Shown: in pieces, positions 10,601 through 16,485 of the stretch
Layout: the number at the start of each line of letters is the position of its first letter
Numbering within the stretch: position 1 is the first letter of the stretch
NCBI GenBank assembly: GCA_903878085.1
Contig: CAIRGJ010000025.1
Location: 1-49,159, forward strand
DNA length: 49,159 nucleotides
Origin: an uncultured Hyphomicrobiales bacterium
GTDB lineage: Bacteria; Pseudomonadota; Alphaproteobacteria; Rhizobiales; Xanthobacteraceae
Direction of reading: 5' to 3'
Notes under the pieces: generated by a model
Seen by the model: only the letters and a program-made list of their open reading frames with translations
Databases searched by the model: none
Told to the model about the DNA's origin: nothing
Program-made: the position numbers and the translations under genes

Positions 10601-11379
10601 ACGACCGCATCCTTCGCATTGCTTTGCCACTTCTGATGCTGGTGCTGGTGGTGCTGGCCTGGGATCTGGCCGTGCGGTTGTACGCCATTCCGCCTTACGT
10701 GCTGCCGGGTCCCGGTCTGGTGCTGGCGACGTTGAATGCCGACGCCGGACTGCTGTGGCAATCTTTGCTGGTGACGTTCACCATCACCTTCGAAGGCTTC
10801 ATGCTGGCCGCAGTCGGCGGCATCGTGCTGGCGGTGGCCTTCAATCAATGGCGGCTGGTCGAATACTCGTTTTATCCTTACGCGGTCATCTTGCAGGTGA
10901 CGCCCATCGTCGCCGTCGCGCCACTGCTGCTGATCTATCTACCGCAGCCTTTGGCGGTGCTGGCCTGCGCCTGGATCGTCGCCTTCTTCCCGGTACTGGC
11001 CAACACCACGCTTGGCCTGAATTCGGTCGATCACAATCTGATCGCGCTGTTCGATCTGTACAAAGCGTCGCGCTGGCAGGTGCTGTGGAATCTGAAACTG
11101 CCGGCGGCGCTGCCGCAGATGCTGGCCGGTCTGCGCATCGCCGGCGGCCTGTCGCTGATTGGCGCGGTGGTGGCCGAAATCGCCGCGGGTTCCGCCGGCG
11201 CCGGTTCGGGCTTGGCCTATCGCATCGCCGAATCCGGCTACCGGCTCAACATCCCGCGCATGTTCGCGGCGCTGTTGCTGTTATCGCTCGCCGGCGTCGC
11301 GATTTTCTTTGCGCTGTCGGCACTATCCTATTTGGCTTTGCGCCGCTGGCACGAAAGTGCGGTGAGGCGGGAACGTTAG
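10597..11379 (+). CDS. ABC transporter permease
   Basis: This 260-residue inner-membrane permease has about six hydrophobic segments and an EAA-type cytoplasmic loop near DLYKASRWQVLWNLKLPAA, which docks the ATPase. It belongs to the SsuC/TauC/ThiX-like group. It is the third gene of the coupled importer (ATGA overlap with the ATPase). Its stop overlaps the stop of the convergent chrA gene by three bases, so there is no room for a separate terminator between the two convergent transcripts. Confidence 0.92.
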   Translation: MNDRILRIALPLLMLVLVVLAWDLAVRLYAIPPYVLPGPGLVLATLNADAGLLWQSLLVTFTITFEGFMLAAVGGIVLAVAFNQWRLVEYSFYPYAVILQVTPIVAVAPLLLIYLPQPLAVLACAWIVAFFPVLANTTLGLNSVDHNLIALFDLYKASRWQVLWNLKLPAALPQMLAGLRIAGGLSLIGAVVAEIAAGSAGAGSGLAYRIAESGYRLNIPRMFAALLLLSLAGVAIFFALSALSYLALRRWHESAVRRER

Positions 11380-12692
11380 AACGTCACTTGCGTAATCATG
11401 CCGAGCGCCGCCATCACGCAGACGACCTCGATCAGGCCGCGGTGAAAGCGGAAGGCCAGCACCGCCGCAACGGCGGCCAGCGTTGCGGCGCGGGTATCGA
11501 GCGCGGCGGGGTCGAAGGCGAACCAGCGCAGCGGTCCGGCGTGCATTTCGGTGACTTTGCCGAACAGCACATGCAGCGCGAACCAGACCGACAGATTGAG
11601 GATGACGCCGACGACGGCGGCGGTGATCGCCGCGAGAGCGCCGGACAATTGCCGGTTGGCGCGAAGCCGCTCGATGAAGGGTGCGCCGGCGAAAATCCAC
11701 AGCATCGAGGGCACGAAGGTCACCCAGGTCGTCATCGCGGCACCGAGCGCGCCCGCAAGGATCGGCGAAAACGGCGCGGCTTCGCGAAACGCCGCCAGGA
11801 AGCCGACGAACTGCGTCACCAGGATCAGCGGTCCCGGCGTGGTCTCGGCCAGGCCGAGGCCGTCGACCATCTCCGGCGCGGTCATCCAGCCATAGGTTTC
11901 GACCGCCTGCTGCGCCATGTAGGCCAGCAATGCGTAGGCGCCGCCGAAGCTGACCACCGAGAGCTTTGAGAAAAACAGCCCGATGCTGACCAGCACATGC
12001 TGCGGGCCGAAAACCAGTGCGGCGAGCACGACCGGCGCCCACCACACCAGTACGCCAATGACCGCGGCGAGGGCAAAGTGCCGCCAGCGGTCCTTCGTAG
12101 GCGGCGGGATGTTTTCGATTTTGCTGGCGACGCCGAGCTGCTCCGGTGCCTGGTGCGACACCAGGTAGCCGACCAGCGCGGCCGCCGCCACGATCAGCGG
12201 AAACGGCAGTTCCAGGAAAAAGATTCCGATGAAGGCGGCGGCGGCGAGGCCCAGCAGCAAGTTCGTCTTGAGCGCTCGTTTTCCGATGCGGACCAGCGCC
12301 TCGACCACGATCACCAGCACCGCGGCCTTGATGCCGAACAGCGCGCCGTCGATCAGCGGCACGCCGCGCCCAAGCGCGTAGAGCAGGCTCAGGCCCAGCA
12401 TTACGAGGGCGCCGGGAATGACGAACAGAATGCCGGCCGCCAGCCCGCCGCGCACGCCGTGCAGCAGCCAGCCGAGATAGGTCGCGAGCTTCTGCGCCTC
12501 TGGGCCCGGCAGCAGCATGCAGAAATTCAGCGCATGCAGGAAACGAGCCTCATCGACCCATTTCTTCTCGTCGACGACGACGCGATGCATCAGCGCGATC
12601 TGCGCCGCCGGCCCGCCGAAATTGACGCAGCCGATCTCGAGCCAGACCTTGAAGGCTTCGGAGAAGGTCGGTTTTTCTTCAGGGCTCATCAT
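11376..12692 (-). CDS. chrA: Chromate efflux transporter ChrA
   Basis: This protein of about 438 residues is a long-form CHR transporter made of two homologous halves. Half one holds CVNFGGPAAQIALMH and LLPGPEAQKLATYLGW; half two holds VVSFGGAYALLAYM and TTPGPLILVTQFVGF. FGGP/FGGA and PGP motifs of this kind mark the family, which exports chromate across the inner membrane. I choose the ATG at 12692 because it overlaps the chrB-like stop in an ATGA; an upstream TTG at 12707 is possible but unlikely. Translation is therefore coupled to the rhodanese-ChrB gene and controlled with it by the structured leader at 13515-13583. Confidence 0.92.
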   Translation of the reverse strand: MMSPEEKPTFSEAFKVWLEIGCVNFGGPAAQIALMHRVVVDEKKWVDEARFLHALNFCMLLPGPEAQKLATYLGWLLHGVRGGLAAGILFVIPGALVMLGLSLLYALGRGVPLIDGALFGIKAAVLVIVVEALVRIGKRALKTNLLLGLAAAAFIGIFFLELPFPLIVAAAALVGYLVSHQAPEQLGVASKIENIPPPTKDRWRHFALAAVIGVLVWWAPVVLAALVFGPQHVLVSIGLFFSKLSVVSFGGAYALLAYMAQQAVETYGWMTAPEMVDGLGLAETTPGPLILVTQFVGFLAAFREAAPFSPILAGALGAAMTTWVTFVPSMLWIFAGAPFIERLRANRQLSGALAAITAAVVGVILNLSVWFALHVLFGKVTEMHAGPLRWFAFDPAALDTRAATLAAVAAVLAFRFHRGLIEVVCVMAALGMITQVTF

Positions 12693-13510
12693 GCGCGTGC
12701 CGGCCAATTGTGACGTTCCTCGGCGGCGAAGCGCAGCCAGGCGAACAGCGCATCGTAGACCATGAAACCGCGTTCGAGCAGCCCATGATCGTCGTCGCCG
12801 GCCAATTGCGACAGGCCGAGCGAAATCGCGTGCAGTCCGGCTGCTTCCAGCGCGAGGTCGGGCCGCGCGGTGTCGGCGCCGCGCACGATCAAAGCCAGCC
12901 GCGCCAGCGACGGCTCGCTTTCCAGGCCGAACAGCTTGAGCATGGTGTCGAACGAGCAGCGTTCGCCGTCATGGCTCAGTTCGACGCCCTGAATGTCGAA
13001 CGGGATGCCGCCGGCCTCGGCCGCTGCCGCTTCGACATAGGCCGGGTCGACGAACATGATTTTCGCTTGCGGGTCGATGAAGCGTCGGATCAGCCAGGGG
13101 CAGGCGATGCGGTCTATCTTCGGCCGCCGCCGCGTCACCCAAATGCTGGGCCGCTTCGGTGCGAAGCGCGCGAGCGCCGCGCGATCGACCATCGGCAGTC
13201 CGGCATCGCTCCAGGCGAAGCTGCCGTCCTCCAGCATCGACGCGTGGTAACCCGCGGCGCGCAGTTCGGCGGTGATGAACTGGCTCAGTTCCTTGCCGGC
13301 CTTGCAGGCGACGACGACGGGGCACGCCGGGTCGAGTGTCCCGATCCAACGCGGGAGTTCGGTCGGCTCTCGCCAGATCGAAGCGGGCAACAGCCCGGGC
13401 GTGGATTCATAGATATCGCGCCGCCGCACGTCGATCAGTTGCGGCGCATCCGCGGTGCCGATCAAGCGCCAGAGCTGTTGTGGTGAGATCGAGAAAGCCG
13501 GAGACAGCAT
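12689..13510 (-). CDS. Rhodanese-ChrB fusion (chromate resistance protein)
   Basis: This 273-residue protein joins an N-terminal rhodanese-like domain (about residues 1-110) to a C-terminal ChrB domain (about 120-265). The rhodanese active-site loop reads ACKAGKELS, with the catalytic Cys near residue 70, so sulfur transfer is possible. The ChrB half has the IDRIACPWLIRRFIDP signature. In other bacteria ChrB-domain proteins act as chromate-responsive regulators or reductases. Here the gene precedes chrA with a four-base overlap and follows a TSUP permease, which suggests a joint role in chromate and sulfur-oxyanion handling. The ATG lies four bases after a GGAGGGG ribosome site that is part of the structured leader. 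No helix-turn-helix region is evident, so a regulatory role is unproven. Confidence 0.88.
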   Translation of the reverse strand: MLSPAFSISPQQLWRLIGTADAPQLIDVRRRDIYESTPGLLPASIWREPTELPRWIGTLDPACPVVVACKAGKELSQFITAELRAAGYHASMLEDGSFAWSDAGLPMVDRAALARFAPKRPSIWVTRRRPKIDRIACPWLIRRFIDPQAKIMFVDPAYVEAAAAEAGGIPFDIQGVELSHDGERCSFDTMLKLFGLESEPSLARLALIVRGADTARPDLALEAAGLHAISLGLSQLAGDDDHGLLERGFMVYDALFAWLRFAAEERHNWPARA

Positions 13511-13514
13511 GGGT

Positions 13515-13583
13515 CCCCTCCGTAAACGAAGGAGACGGTGCTTGGGCTCCTGAGCCTAAAGGGGCGACCGCCGCAGGCCCCAC
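13515..13583 (-). promoter_or_regulatory. Structured 5' leader of the chrB-chrA operon, candidate riboswitch-like pseudoknot
   Basis: The minus-strand RNA can form a 5-bp stem (arms 13577-13581 and 13561-13565). Its loop (13567-13572) can pair with 13534-13539 over six bases, giving an H-type pseudoknot. Between them sits a small GGCT/AGCC hairpin (13545-13548/13553-13556). A last hairpin (13531-13534/13518-13521) buries the GGAG of the chrB ribosome site and shares one base with the pseudoknot strand, so ligand-driven switching of translation is plausible. A second copy with 67 of 69 bases identical lies at 14539-14607. I recall candidate cis-regulatory RNA motifs named after chrB in Alphaproteobacteria; membership here is unverified. 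Confidence 0.7.
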
Positions 13584-13626
13584 AGCAATCATTTAACTTA
13601 AGCGGCCGCCGCCAGCAAGCGTCCGG

Positions 13627-14370
13627 TCACCGAAACATCGACAACGGCACGACCAGCGATAGTCCGGATATCAGAAGGAGCAGCAGGATGGCCTTGCGGA
13701 AGCCTGCGTCGTCGAGTCTTCCGTAGAGCCTGACGCCGACCCACAAGCCCAACAGCAACGCCGGCAAGCCCAGCAGGAAAAGTCTGAGGATATCGACGTT
13801 GAAGAGATGGCCCGACGCGGCGAAGGTCAGCGTGGTCATCGTCATGGTGATGAACAGCACCGGCTGGAATATCGCGCGCTGTACATCTTTGGTCCCGCCG
13901 CCGAGCTGGACCCAGATCGTGCTGATGACACCGCCAAGGCCGGTGAGGCCTCCGAGCAGTCCGTTCAGGACACCAATGCCGACATTGATTGCCGGATTGG
14001 ACTTGATTGGCGTGAGGCTCGGCCGCGCGAGATTGTAGGTGCTGTACGCGATCAACAATATCCCGACGCCGATGCGCAAGTGCGCGGGATTTATATAGGT
14101 CACCAGATAGGCGCCCAGCGGAACACCCACAGCGCCACCGACGACATACGGCAAGATCAGCCGCCATTGGAGCGCGTGGCGGACTTTCCAGATTCCATAG
14201 GATTGATTGACGATTCCGTAGGCGGCGATCAGTACCGCCGTTTGCAACGGAGTGATGATGTGTAGCCAGATGCCCGAAACAACGAGTCCGGCCGCAAAGC
14301 CGGTCAGGCCGCTGGTGAAACCGCCCAAAAATGTCGCGACGAGAAAGAGCGCAATGATAGTGCCATCCAT
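13627..14370 (-). CDS. TSUP (TauE/SafE) family permease, copy A
   Basis: This 247-residue inner-membrane protein has about eight hydrophobic segments in two repeats of the TSUP fold. Family hallmarks are GGFTSGLTGFAAGL near the N terminus and GLLGGLTGLGGV in the second half. Such permeases export sulfite, sulfoacetate or other small anions. It ends in LSLVVPLSMFR, matching the end of copy B (VSLVVPFSWFR). I take ATG 14370 as start; a TTG frame adds four residues. It lies between two copies of the structured 69-nt element and upstream of the rhodanese-ChrB/chrA operon, which suggests a sulfur-oxyanion role. Substrate unproven. Confidence 0.88.
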   Translation of the reverse strand: MDGTIIALFLVATFLGGFTSGLTGFAAGLVVSGIWLHIITPLQTAVLIAAYGIVNQSYGIWKVRHALQWRLILPYVVGGAVGVPLGAYLVTYINPAHLRIGVGILLIAYSTYNLARPSLTPIKSNPAINVGIGVLNGLLGGLTGLGGVISTIWVQLGGGTKDVQRAIFQPVLFITMTMTTLTFAASGHLFNVDILRLFLLGLPALLLGLWVGVRLYGRLDDAGFRKAILLLLLISGLSLVVPLSMFR

Positions 14371-14517
14371 GTTTAACCCCAAGCGAAAGCGATCAGCGCT
14401 TGGATGGACAGCGTCACATCTGACGGGGAGGCTGTGGAGACCCCGAACGTTGCATATTGACGATTACCGGCGCGCAAGGCGCCGCGAATCGAATTGCAGA
14501 ATTGTTGGATGAGTTTG

Positions 14518-14538
14518 CTAGTCTGCCAAAGCCATTGC
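14518..14538 (-). other. Vestigial five-codon reading frame after orphan leader
   Basis: Directly after the second structured element, the minus strand reads GGAGGGGGC, then an ATG at 14535 with four more codons before a TAG at 14520-14518. The ribosome site and spacing mirror those of the chrB-like gene. It may be a regulatory mini-frame or the remnant of a lost gene left by duplication. Nothing else coding is visible between here and the TSUP copy A start at 14370. Confidence 0.35.
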
Positions 14539-14607
14539 CCCCTCCGTAAACGAAGGAGGCGGTGCTTGGGCTCCTGAGCCTGAAGGGGCGACCGCCGCAG
14601 GCCCCAC
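14539..14607 (-). promoter_or_regulatory. Second copy of the structured leader element, between the two TSUP genes
   Basis: This copy differs from 13515-13583 at two of 69 positions. Arms are 14601-14605/14585-14589 (stem 1), 14591-14596/14558-14563 (pseudoknot strand), 14577-14580/14569-14572 (inner hairpin) and 14555-14559/14541-14545 (ribosome-site hairpin). One difference (14559 versus 13535) changes a G-C pair to a G-U pair in minus-strand RNA, so pairing is kept; the other falls in a loop. It is 168 bp upstream of the TSUP copy A start and could control that gene. Confidence 0.65.
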
Positions 14608-14643
14608 GTGAATCATTTACCGCGTCGCGCGGCAGTCGGCAAG

Positions 14644-15384
14644 CTAGCGAAACCAGGAAAACGGCACCACCAGCGATACGCCGGACACCAGCAACAAAAC
14701 GAGCACCACCTTGCGAAACGCATTGTCGTCGAGTTTGCCGTAGAGTTTGAGGCCGACCCAGGTGCCGGCCATCATGCAGGGCAGGCCGAGCAGATACAGT
14801 TTCACGGTCTCGGCCGTCACCGCGCCGGCCACGGTCAAGGACGCCGTCGCCATCAAAATCGTCGCCATCAGTACCGGCTGAAAGATGCCGCGCTGGATGT
14901 CTTTCGGCCAGCTTCGCAACTGGCACCAGATCACGATGATAATGCCGCTCAGTCCGGTGAGTCCGCCGAGCAAGCCGTTGAGCGCGCCGACGCCGACGTC
15001 GATCGATACATTCTCATGCGCGACCTTCACCGAAGGCCGGCTGAGGCCCCAGAGGCTGTAGGCCACCAGCATTGCGCCGATCGCGACGCGCAACGCGTCC
15101 GGATCGGTATGGGCCAGCAGCATGGTGCCGATCGGCACGCCGACTGCGCCGCCGATAATAAAGGGTGCGGCGCTCTTCCAGTTCACCGATTGCCTGAATT
15201 TCCAGATCGCATAGCCCTGGGTCACGAAACCGTAGCCCGCGATCAAGGTCGCGGTTTGCAGCGGTGTGAACAAATGCAGGCAGATGCCGGACACCACCAG
15301 GCCCATGGCAAAGCCCGCCACGCCGGAGGTGAGGCCGCCGAGGAAAGTCGCCAGCAGGAACAATGTCAGAGAAAGGCCATTCAT
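14644..15384 (-). CDS. TSUP (TauE/SafE) family permease, copy B
   Basis: This 246-residue paralogue of copy A has the same eight-segment layout and shared blocks: LLATFLGGLTSGVAGFAMG, IIGGAVGVPIG, LNGLLGGLTGLSG, DIQRGIFQPVL and KLYGKLDDNAFRK. It is the first gene of the minus-strand run that leads through copy A to chrB-chrA. The start at 15384 gives the expected short N terminus before the first membrane helix. Tandem copies may differ in substrate or be fixed for dosage. The 184-bp gap to the divergent DMT exporter gene contains the promoter, but I cannot place boxes. Confidence 0.88.
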   Translation of the reverse strand: MNGLSLTLFLLATFLGGLTSGVAGFAMGLVVSGICLHLFTPLQTATLIAGYGFVTQGYAIWKFRQSVNWKSAAPFIIGGAVGVPIGTMLLAHTDPDALRVAIGAMLVAYSLWGLSRPSVKVAHENVSIDVGVGALNGLLGGLTGLSGIIIVIWCQLRSWPKDIQRGIFQPVLMATILMATASLTVAGAVTAETVKLYLLGLPCMMAGTWVGLKLYGKLDDNAFRKVVLVLLLVSGVSLVVPFSWFR

Positions 15385-15567
15385 CGCTTGCGCCCGGAAT
15401 CAAAGTCGGCGGCATGTCATAGGGAATGATGCATCGCGAAAGCAAATCGGCGACTGGATGGCTGCCATCTCGCGGCAAGACTGCTATTCCGGCGCCAGAC
15501 ACGGTATAGCAACGGATCGAATGGCGGGCGGTCAAACGCTGCCAAGCCCCAGAGAAACCCGAACGCG

Positions 15568-16485
15568 ATGATCCCGACAGCCGAGTTGGCACTGCAGCGC
15601 CGCCAGCGCCTGATCGGCATCGGACTGATGTGCATGACGGTGGCCGTCTTCGCCTGTCTCGACACCACGGCGAAGTATCTCGGCACGATGATGGACCCCT
15701 TGGAGGTCGCCTGGGCGCGTTACACCAGTGCTTTCGTGCTCACGCTGTTCGTCTCCAACCCGGTCAGCCATCCGGGCCTGGTGCGGACCAAGCGTCCGGT
15801 GCTTCAGGTCGTGCGGGCCTTGCTGCTGGTGGCATCGACAGTGTTGAACTTCTTCGCGTTGCGCTGGCTCCAGCTCGACGAAGCCCTGTCGATCATTTTT
15901 ACCTTTCCGTTCATCGTTGCGATTGCGTCCGGGCCGATATTGGGCGAGTGGCTCGGCTGGCGGCGCTGGACCGCGATCTGCGTCGGCTTCGGCGGTGTGC
16001 TGCTGATCACGCGTCCGGGTTTGGGCGGTTTCAATCCGGGCGCTTTGCTCTCGCTGGCCTCGGTGATCTGCTACGGGCTTTATGCGGTGCTGACCCGGGT
16101 GGCGTCGCGCTCCGACTCCAATCAGACCTCTTTGTTTTACAACAACGCCATCGGTGCACTGGTGATGCTGCCGGTCATTCCGTTCGTCTGGCAGACGCCG
16201 GCGAACTGGACCATCGCCCTGATGCTCGTGGGCATCGGCGCGCTCGGCAGCGTGGGCCACTTTTTCCTGATTTCAGGACACAAACTGGCGCCGGCGTCGG
16301 TGCTGTCGCCCTTCATCTATACGCAGCTGATCTGGGTTGTGATTTTGGGCTATCTGGTATTCGACCACGTGCCCAACGAATGGACGATGGTGGGCGCCGC
16401 CGTCGTCATTGGTTCTGGCTTATATTTGCTGTACCGGGAGCGCCACTTGGGTAAAAGCACGACCAGCGAGGCGGTCATCGAATAA
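15568..16485 (+). CDS. DMT superfamily transporter (EamA domains)
   Basis: This 305-residue inner-membrane protein has ten hydrophobic segments arranged as two EamA repeats. Useful landmarks are FACLDTTAKYLG near the start, LDEALSIIFTFPFIVAIAS in repeat one, and LAPASVLSPFIYTQLIWVV in repeat two. Family members export amino acids, nucleobases or other metabolites. It is transcribed away from the TSUP genes and lies 81 bp before the 2-oxoacid dehydrogenase E1 alpha gene, possibly in the same transcript. Substrate unknown. Confidence 0.87.
   Translation: MIPTAELALQRRQRLIGIGLMCMTVAVFACLDTTAKYLGTMMDPLEVAWARYTSAFVLTLFVSNPVSHPGLVRTKRPVLQVVRALLLVASTVLNFFALRWLQLDEALSIIFTFPFIVAIASGPILGEWLGWRRWTAICVGFGGVLLITRPGLGGFNPGALLSLASVICYGLYAVLTRVASRSDSNQTSLFYNNAIGALVMLPVIPFVWQTPANWTIALMLVGIGALGSVGHFFLISGHKLAPASVLSPFIYTQLIWVVILGYLVFDHVPNEWTMVGAAVVIGSGLYLLYRERHLGKSTTSEAVIE

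Follow-up and report, generated by a model that had tools for sequence, protein, structure and literature searches.

Does the RNA leader in front of the rhodanese-ChrB and chrA genes act as a regulatory switch and, if so, to which kind of RNA does it belong and what might it sense? The 49,159-nt stretch of DNA that was analyzed (hereafter, the window) comes from an uncultured Hyphomicrobiales bacterium, and all features discussed lie on its minus strand. Our main reading, to which we assign a probability of roughly two in three, is that the leader is a cis-acting RNA switch of the chrB kind that would turn on the translation of detoxification genes.

In minus-strand order, the region contains a TauE/SafE gene (14644..15384; Pfam PF01925), a first RNA element (hereafter, element A; 14533..14606), a five-codon ORF, ATGGCTTTGGCAGACTAG (MALAD; 14518..14535), recognized from its sequence and by comparison with relatives, a second element (element B; 14393..14445), a second TauE/SafE family exporter (13627..14370; PF01925, with the ATG start at MDG... 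checked), the leader in question (element C; 13508..13582, from its stem P1 to the start codon of the next gene), the rhodanese-ChrB_C protein gene (12689..13510; PF00581 and PF09828), and the chromate transporter gene chrA (11376..12707; PF02417 and TIGR00937), whose true start may be nearer 12692. The two TauE/SafE paralogues are 55% identical, and no element was listed across the 216 nt upstream of the first.

A promoter-like signal, TTGCTG-N16-TTAAAT (13591..13618), ends 9 nt before P1 of element C. This signal is weak alone, and a consensus scan of 13300-15600 listed no promoter before element C, but it sits at the position of a family-wide peak. Across 237 distinct upstream regions, raw (unshuffled) scores gave a TTG-like peak at -38/-37 and a TATAAT-like peak at -15/-14 relative to P1, which predicts a transcription start at or near P1. 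No sign of a start downstream of the element was seen.

Predicted fold of the leader

All four parts of the structure originally proposed from the letters are present on the minus strand. Stem P1 and its loop occupy 13561..13581, with GGGGC (13581-13577) pairing to GCCCC (13565-13561). Within the loop, GCGGU (13571-13567) can pair with the downstream strand ACCGU (13539-13535), and the small hairpin P3 (13545..13556) enclosed between them pairs GGCU (13556-13553) with AGCC (13548-13545). The last hairpin (13513..13536) pairs 13536-13527 with 13522-13513 and covers GGAGG (13521-13517) just before the rhodanese-ChrB start codon (13510-13508). The loop pairing had been given as six bases; five pairs are conserved, whereas the sixth (13572/13534) uses a base that is paired in the hairpin of relatives.

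The minimum free energy of the 69-nt stretch alone is ordinary (z 0.50; 139 of 200 shuffles fold as well), so folding energy is no proof of structure by itself and comparative evidence is needed. In an alignment of 47 diverse elements from both Rfam chrB families and the window, pseudoknot cells pair at 99.6%, four of the five pseudoknot pairs and all five P3 pairs change on both sides, and sliding the partner strand cuts whole-structure pairing from 91.4% to 33–43%. These 47 (of 49 selected, two being left out) had been chosen for pairing at all five pseudoknot positions, and unselected figures therefore carry more weight. For these we turned to 252 merged chrB-a and chrB-b matches drawn from family, class, and phylum samples; four matched places (G017:C131, G015:C172, G015:C80, and G030:C98) were never entered in this list. 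When 235 unique cores were parsed blind to the pseudoknot, 163 formed all five pairs, 25 formed four, and 43 formed at most two, most of the latter being, by eye, one base off or caught on another AAG. An earlier version of this parse gave 81.7% in-register pairing versus 19–51% when the strand was slid. A pseudoknot-aware parse, favourable by construction, found five of five pairs in 208 of 251 elements. With a parse of this pairing-favouring kind, all but one of the 252 matches resolve into P1, pseudoknot, a CAAG-like motif, and a downstream strand.

A stricter comparison replayed the inferred substitutions on the tree, with three elements dropped from that analysis. This tree-aware null was beaten by two pairs of P1 and by the final pseudoknot pair (no null value as high in 60 simulations), although two adjacent column pairs that do not belong to the structure nearly passed as well (E 0.017 and 0.083). 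The remaining four pseudoknot pairs stay within the null, in part for want of variation. The paired positions in homologous leaders are, by these tests, both conserved and covarying. P3 pairs in 83.1% of cells across subtypes and in 74.8% within the subtype of the window.

Within that subtype there is less variation to work with. All 420 pseudoknot cells pair in 84 distinct members aligned with a model that lacks the pseudoknot, but shuffles also reach 97.7%, as the helix barely varies and three of its pairs are invariant among these members. The aptamer as a whole had no covariation beyond shuffles in an alignment of 23 subtype sequences, which are too uniform. Conservation extends to unpaired bases, namely the CCAAG motif and the C that separates the pseudoknot strand from P1.

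Taken with the homologues, the comparisons confirm the predicted fold of element C as a P1 stem with a 5-bp H-type pseudoknot, an enclosed P3, and a hairpin over the ribosome site. The pseudoknot of chrB RNA is itself not new, since a covariation-supported pseudoknot helix is reported for this RNA in the part of that work available to us (PMC7657543).

Relationship to the chrB-a and chrB-b RNAs

Element B alone passes the Rfam curated thresholds, as chrB-b (RF03086; 38.4 bits, above the gathering score of 36.5). A permissive search matched elements A and C to both chrB-a (RF03078) and chrB-b, in every case below threshold: element C scored 35.9 bits for chrB-a (gathering threshold 43.9) and 29.8 bits for chrB-b (36.5), and element A 36.6 and 35.9 bits, respectively. 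By gathering score, element C thus falls outside both families. These two families are the chrB-named motifs that the original prediction had mentioned, and a 2017 paper is said to be their source. The ligand had been expected to be new or little described, and the latter is fair: both motifs are in Rfam, and a literature search of limited reach returned no paper that assigns a ligand to chrB-a or chrB-b.

Only elements A, B, and C were credible among chrB-a and chrB-b matches at up to E 1 in the whole genome. One further chrB-a match (L006, contig 2; 27.7 bits) overlaps the end of an ORF and was judged a chance match, and a second (22.9 bits) was rejected as lying inside what appears, by eye, to be coding sequence. 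The weak match in L006 adjoins a gene that by eye resembles a molybdopterin sulfite oxidase.

No clan is listed in Rfam for chrB-a or chrB-b, and the parse of the 252 merged matches indicated that the two have a common core architecture. Element C has the same parts, i.e., P1, a 5-bp pseudoknot in its loop, a C before the 3' arm of P1, and CAAG before the pseudoknot strand, and it precedes chrB/chrA-type genes, as expected of a chrB RNA. It resembles chrB-b in P1 with the loop pseudoknot, P3, and CCAAG, and the genes found downstream partly coincide; the chrB-b Rfam model, with 49 positions, extends no further than the pseudoknot strand, and the predicted ribosome-site hairpin falls outside it. 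The likeness to chrB-a lies in P1, pseudoknot, ribosome-site hairpin, start codon, and rhodanese-ChrB as the commonest gene, whereas the sequences of P1, P3, and the hairpin differ. In three loci (L183, L184, and L185), divergent operons each have their own element: a chrB-a and a chrB-b lie on opposite strands some 120–200 nt apart, one leading into rhodanese-ChrB and the other into a different gene.

We built a covariance model (R1) from 23 sequences of the window subtype, elements A and C being in the building set (80.3 and 84.0 bits, respectively). At E ≤ 0.001, R1 had 59 matches in 42 of 198 family genomes, and 41 of these were missed by both Rfam models at the same cutoff and in the same genomes, a number that could partly reflect the search filter, as the genome searches score limited first-look candidates. 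In a larger draw, R1 matched 61 of 322 family genomes at E ≤ 1e-6, and matches in named loci included Pseudolabrys, Pseudorhodoplanes, and other Hyphomicrobiales records. A scan of 47 of the 49 named loci (the partial L151 and L178 were left out) placed 34 above the 99% shuffle threshold and 13 below it; R1 later found an element in one of the 13 (L138).

Direct scanning of 16 loci with a subtype element before rhodanese-ChrB gave no gathering-level chrB match at the element in any of them; seven had sub-threshold matches (25.1–33.5 bits) and nine had none up to E 1. The one match over threshold (59.2 bits, in L368) was a separate chrB-b element upstream of the subtype element. The low Rfam scores are therefore real and go beyond a search-filter effect. 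Judged from sequence and predicted structure, element C is a third chrB-RNA subtype, scored too low by both Rfam models.

SAM-II and preQ1-II riboswitches, which the original prediction had invoked, have a compact pseudoknot next to the ribosome site. Membership in either was not borne out, as their Rfam models gave no match up to E 5 in 12600-15600, and the resemblance to element C is mechanistic only.

Shared bases, controlled genes, and the possible signal

The ribosome-site hairpin of element C is more stable than expected (z -3.2, 50 shuffles). A start codon was called for 192 of the 252 merged matches (none for the other 60), and folding from the pseudoknot strand to that codon placed the ribosome site inside a predicted hairpin in 74 of 75 chrB-a and 110 of 117 chrB-b matches. 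At least two bases of the pseudoknot strand lie within this hairpin in 71 of 75 and 114 of 117, respectively. Among the 23 subtype members, 99.0% of hairpin cells are paired, above all 500 shuffles; the hairpin, unlike the pseudoknot, is part of the R1 model. A pseudoknot leader that competes with a ribosome-site hairpin, as first proposed for this locus, is a conserved arrangement among homologues. The sharing of bases between the two is real, but it involves two bases of element C (13536 and 13535) and not the single one initially counted.

Base 13535 can pair either with 13571, forming part of the pseudoknot, or with 13514, forming part of the hairpin. In an alignment whose model held the hairpin but not the pseudoknot, the shared base is compatible with both partners in all 84 distinct subtype members. 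The three-letter combinations are AUA (38), GCG (20), GUG (12), GUA (11), and AUG (3), and A combined with C, or C with A, never occurs among them. This alignment supersedes an earlier regex count of the three-way pattern, which had a non-pairing letter in 7 of 42 rows. The window itself contains an example: from element A to element C, the hairpin pair changes from C-G to U-A and the pseudoknot pair from G-C to G-U. By comparison, then, the aptamer is coupled to an expression platform through shared bases with two alternative partners, and the concerted variation of a shared base with both of its partners speaks for a translational ON switch with two states.

Blocking the pseudoknot strand raised the calculated hairpin energy by a mean of 5.7 (72 elements) and 5.9 kcal/mol (112 elements). 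For the window, the hairpin went from -15.4 to -11.2 kcal/mol (a cost of 4.2) with eight pairs left, so the pseudoknot alone may not open it. In the switch that we propose, the hairpin would be complete when no signal is present, and translation of rhodanese-ChrB and chrA would be low. A ligand would stabilize the P1-pseudoknot-P3 fold, the shared bases would leave the hairpin, and this hairpin, then weaker by a calculated 4–6 kcal/mol or so, would allow translation to rise. An RNA thermometer or a static ribosome-site hairpin with a passive pseudoknot would agree with a strong hairpin over the ribosome site and with a window element that folds no better overall than shuffles, but is very unlikely, as a static hairpin needs neither conserved unpaired bases and a covarying pseudoknot upstream nor a shared base that fits both partners in 84 of 84 rows.

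To profile the genes that the elements may control, we recorded the first recognized gene after each of the 252 matches, taken as the first tblastn match of a fixed query set, so that an unrecognized gene may intervene; in nine cases it was more than 260 nt away. Rhodanese-ChrB was the most frequent (n = 110), followed by TauE (n = 38), ChrA (n = 24), MFS (n = 14), the Cj0069 family (n = 13), lectin-like (n = 8), DUF1259 (n = 7), SOD (n = 6), MATE (n = 4), YncE-like (n = 4), and ornithine-cyclodeaminase-like genes (n = 4), with 10 others and 10 not assigned. Family names come from representatives; for the lectin-like and YncE genes the underlying matches fall short of curated cut-offs, and the SOD label was confirmed for two. 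The thirteen genes of the Cj0069 family, all after chrB-b elements, are similar to one protein (NF033816, DUF6815; L054:1575-2663 and similar) and link this family to the chr regulon.

As a set, the controlled genes resemble those associated with chromate in Cupriavidus metallidurans, where, in the portion of the source consulted, the chr locus includes an Fe-SOD (ChrC) and an MFS permease (ChrP), the chr operon is described as regulated by chromate, and induction by chromate is stated, with the data not shown there, for five downstream genes, chrP among them (PMC2864759).

The element is closely tied to one architecture of ChrB. There were 132 ChrB_C matches in the 198 genomes, 126 of them with sequence on hand. 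Of the 91 genes of the rhodanese-ChrB_C type, 86 have the element upstream, against none of the 14 that encode the classical N-terminal ChrB domain (Fisher p 1.3e-13, kinship ignored). The 86 comprise 67 Rfam-level matches, 16 descriptor matches, and 3 descriptor matches behind a TauE gene; one of the 16 (G015:C172, read as L339) is counted there though Rfam-matched. By this test, three of the remaining five genes have an element only further up the operon and two have none. A descriptor match in the G017 operon (10.9 against a threshold of 10.44; one of four, and outside the 86) looks like chance, and G010 was also left outside the 86, although R1 later matched an element before its gene. This contrast between rhodanese and classical forms may partly follow descent.

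In Ochrobactrum tritici, according to the sections of the source that we used, the N-terminal half of ChrB is proposed to bind DNA and the C-terminal half to sense chromate, with the residues needed for the chromate response mapping to the C-terminal part (PMC3817168). That ChrB, a proposed DNA-binding protein, controls a chrA-type operon (PMC3817168, same sections), as the RNA would here; the RNA precedes genes that lack the classical N-terminal domain. We infer that, when this domain was lost, its regulatory output passed to the RNA.

What, then, would the leader respond to? The RNA itself probably senses the signal, and the likeliest signals would be chromate or some small molecule whose level increases during chromate or sulfur-oxyanion stress. 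We favour chromate itself or a signal of chromate stress as the best match to the controlled genes, although TauE, MATE, ornithine-cyclodeaminase-like, and Cj0069 genes among them fit ligands other than chromate. The original prediction, that this RNA senses chromate stress or a sulfur metabolite and gates chrB-chrA translation, is as a whole partly supported.

A riboswitch for a sulfur compound (sulfite, thiosulfate, persulfide, or APS) and not for chromate is a variant that overlaps with our main reading. The TauE/SafE exporters and rhodanese domains among the controlled genes point in this direction, and the likeness of those genes to the Cupriavidus set points the other way; we consider this variant somewhat unlikely. 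The gene census was limited to the listed queries, so the missing sulfur-assimilation genes prove nothing.

Less probable again is that the leader works by binding a regulatory protein, such as rhodanese-ChrB_C acting on its own and other mRNAs. The window protein keeps the domain to which the chromate-response residues were mapped in O. tritici, in the sections cited above (PMC3817168), and the element most often precedes the rhodanese-ChrB gene itself. The same core, however, occurs before unrelated genes, and in eight family genomes no ChrB_C match at E ≤ 1e-10 accompanies the elements, which there precede ChrA, MFS, TauE, Cj0069, MATE, or other genes. Such genomes speak against an obligatory RNA-binding role for ChrB. 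These eight remain from ten listed genomes after two with a rhodanese-ChrB relative by tblastn were set aside, and one of them is only 66% complete. The leader may instead bind another protein than ChrB.

A signal-sensing RNA is thus what we prefer, and the fluoride riboswitch is a parallel, only if chromate is the ligand, in that a toxic anion switches on its own exporter. Its fold differs from that of element C. The pocket of the fluoride riboswitch is described, in the part of the source available to us, as binding only fluoride (PMC10043782).

Tandem elements and the five-codon ORF

Element A, of the same subtype as element C, lies before the five-codon ORF. We had considered it a broken relic of a segmental duplication, an explanation overturned by tandem pairs in relatives. 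In the 198-genome draw, 15 of the 59 R1 matches (element A included) lie 39–129 nt before a chrB-b element, and the gene after the pair is TauE in all 15; a five-codon ORF usually separates the two elements.

Reading the frame from the last codon of the model in 85 distinct subtype elements gave 62 ORFs that were long or ran off the sequence end and 23 that were short. Exactly five codons were found in 19 of the 23 (17 starting with ATG, one with GTG, and one with TTG); this length was first noticed at 16 of 18, and G786, G799, and G861 were added afterwards. One of the 19 (G014:76810) precedes a rhodanese-ChrB gene and is not in tandem. The encoded peptides vary (MALAD, MATAG, MLVAH, MCSGP, and others). 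Relatives with such an ORF include L065, L241, L250, L251, L264, L235, L239, L061, L262, and L058.

Nine of the 19 mini-ORFs end in glycine-proline codons, GGGCC(C/T), which are complementary or nearly so to the 3' arm of their own P3, and eight of these nine then run into at least five T. The pairing changes in step, with AGGCCCA matched by UGGGCCU and AGCCCA by UGGGCU. Duplexes of the mini-ORFs with their own core have a mean of -13.1 kcal/mol, versus -12.0 kcal/mol with the mini-ORFs of other elements (permutation p 0.0005), and -8.6 kcal/mol when the interiors are shuffled; 16 of 19 beat their own shuffle mean. As relatives share ancestry, these p values are optimistic. In the window, the MALAD ORF has weaker complementarity (-10.7 kcal/mol) and no T run.

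We read the mini-ORF as an anti-aptamer strand that serves as a terminator arm in part of the lineage, and its translation would plausibly play a role. The setting would be a rhodanese-ChrB lineage that swapped a DNA-binding sensor domain for RNA control. The upstream element would control the translation of an otherwise meaningless five-codon ORF, whose codons would serve as the anti-aptamer strand; in about half of the observed cases they would also supply the 3' arm of a terminator, with a U run after it. When this switch is OFF, the mini-ORF strand would pair with the switch core and transcription would stop; when it is ON, either the folded aptamer or a ribosome translating the mini-ORF would hold that strand apart, and the downstream chrB-b element would gate the translation of TauE. 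TauE would then be guarded by two serial switches, element A with its mini-ORF acting on transcription and chrB-b acting on translation, for a steep, low-leak response to a toxic oxyanion. We put this two-switch model forward tentatively, as a possibility that falls well short of even odds.

Together, the joint architecture, the subtype, the shared base, and the list of controlled genes lead to a short list of testable compounds and to precise mutations. If the two-switch model is true, the five-codon ORF arrangement would be an unusual conversion of a translational switch into transcription control, and if chromate is the ligand, these leaders would be natural examples of an RNA that senses a toxic metal oxyanion.
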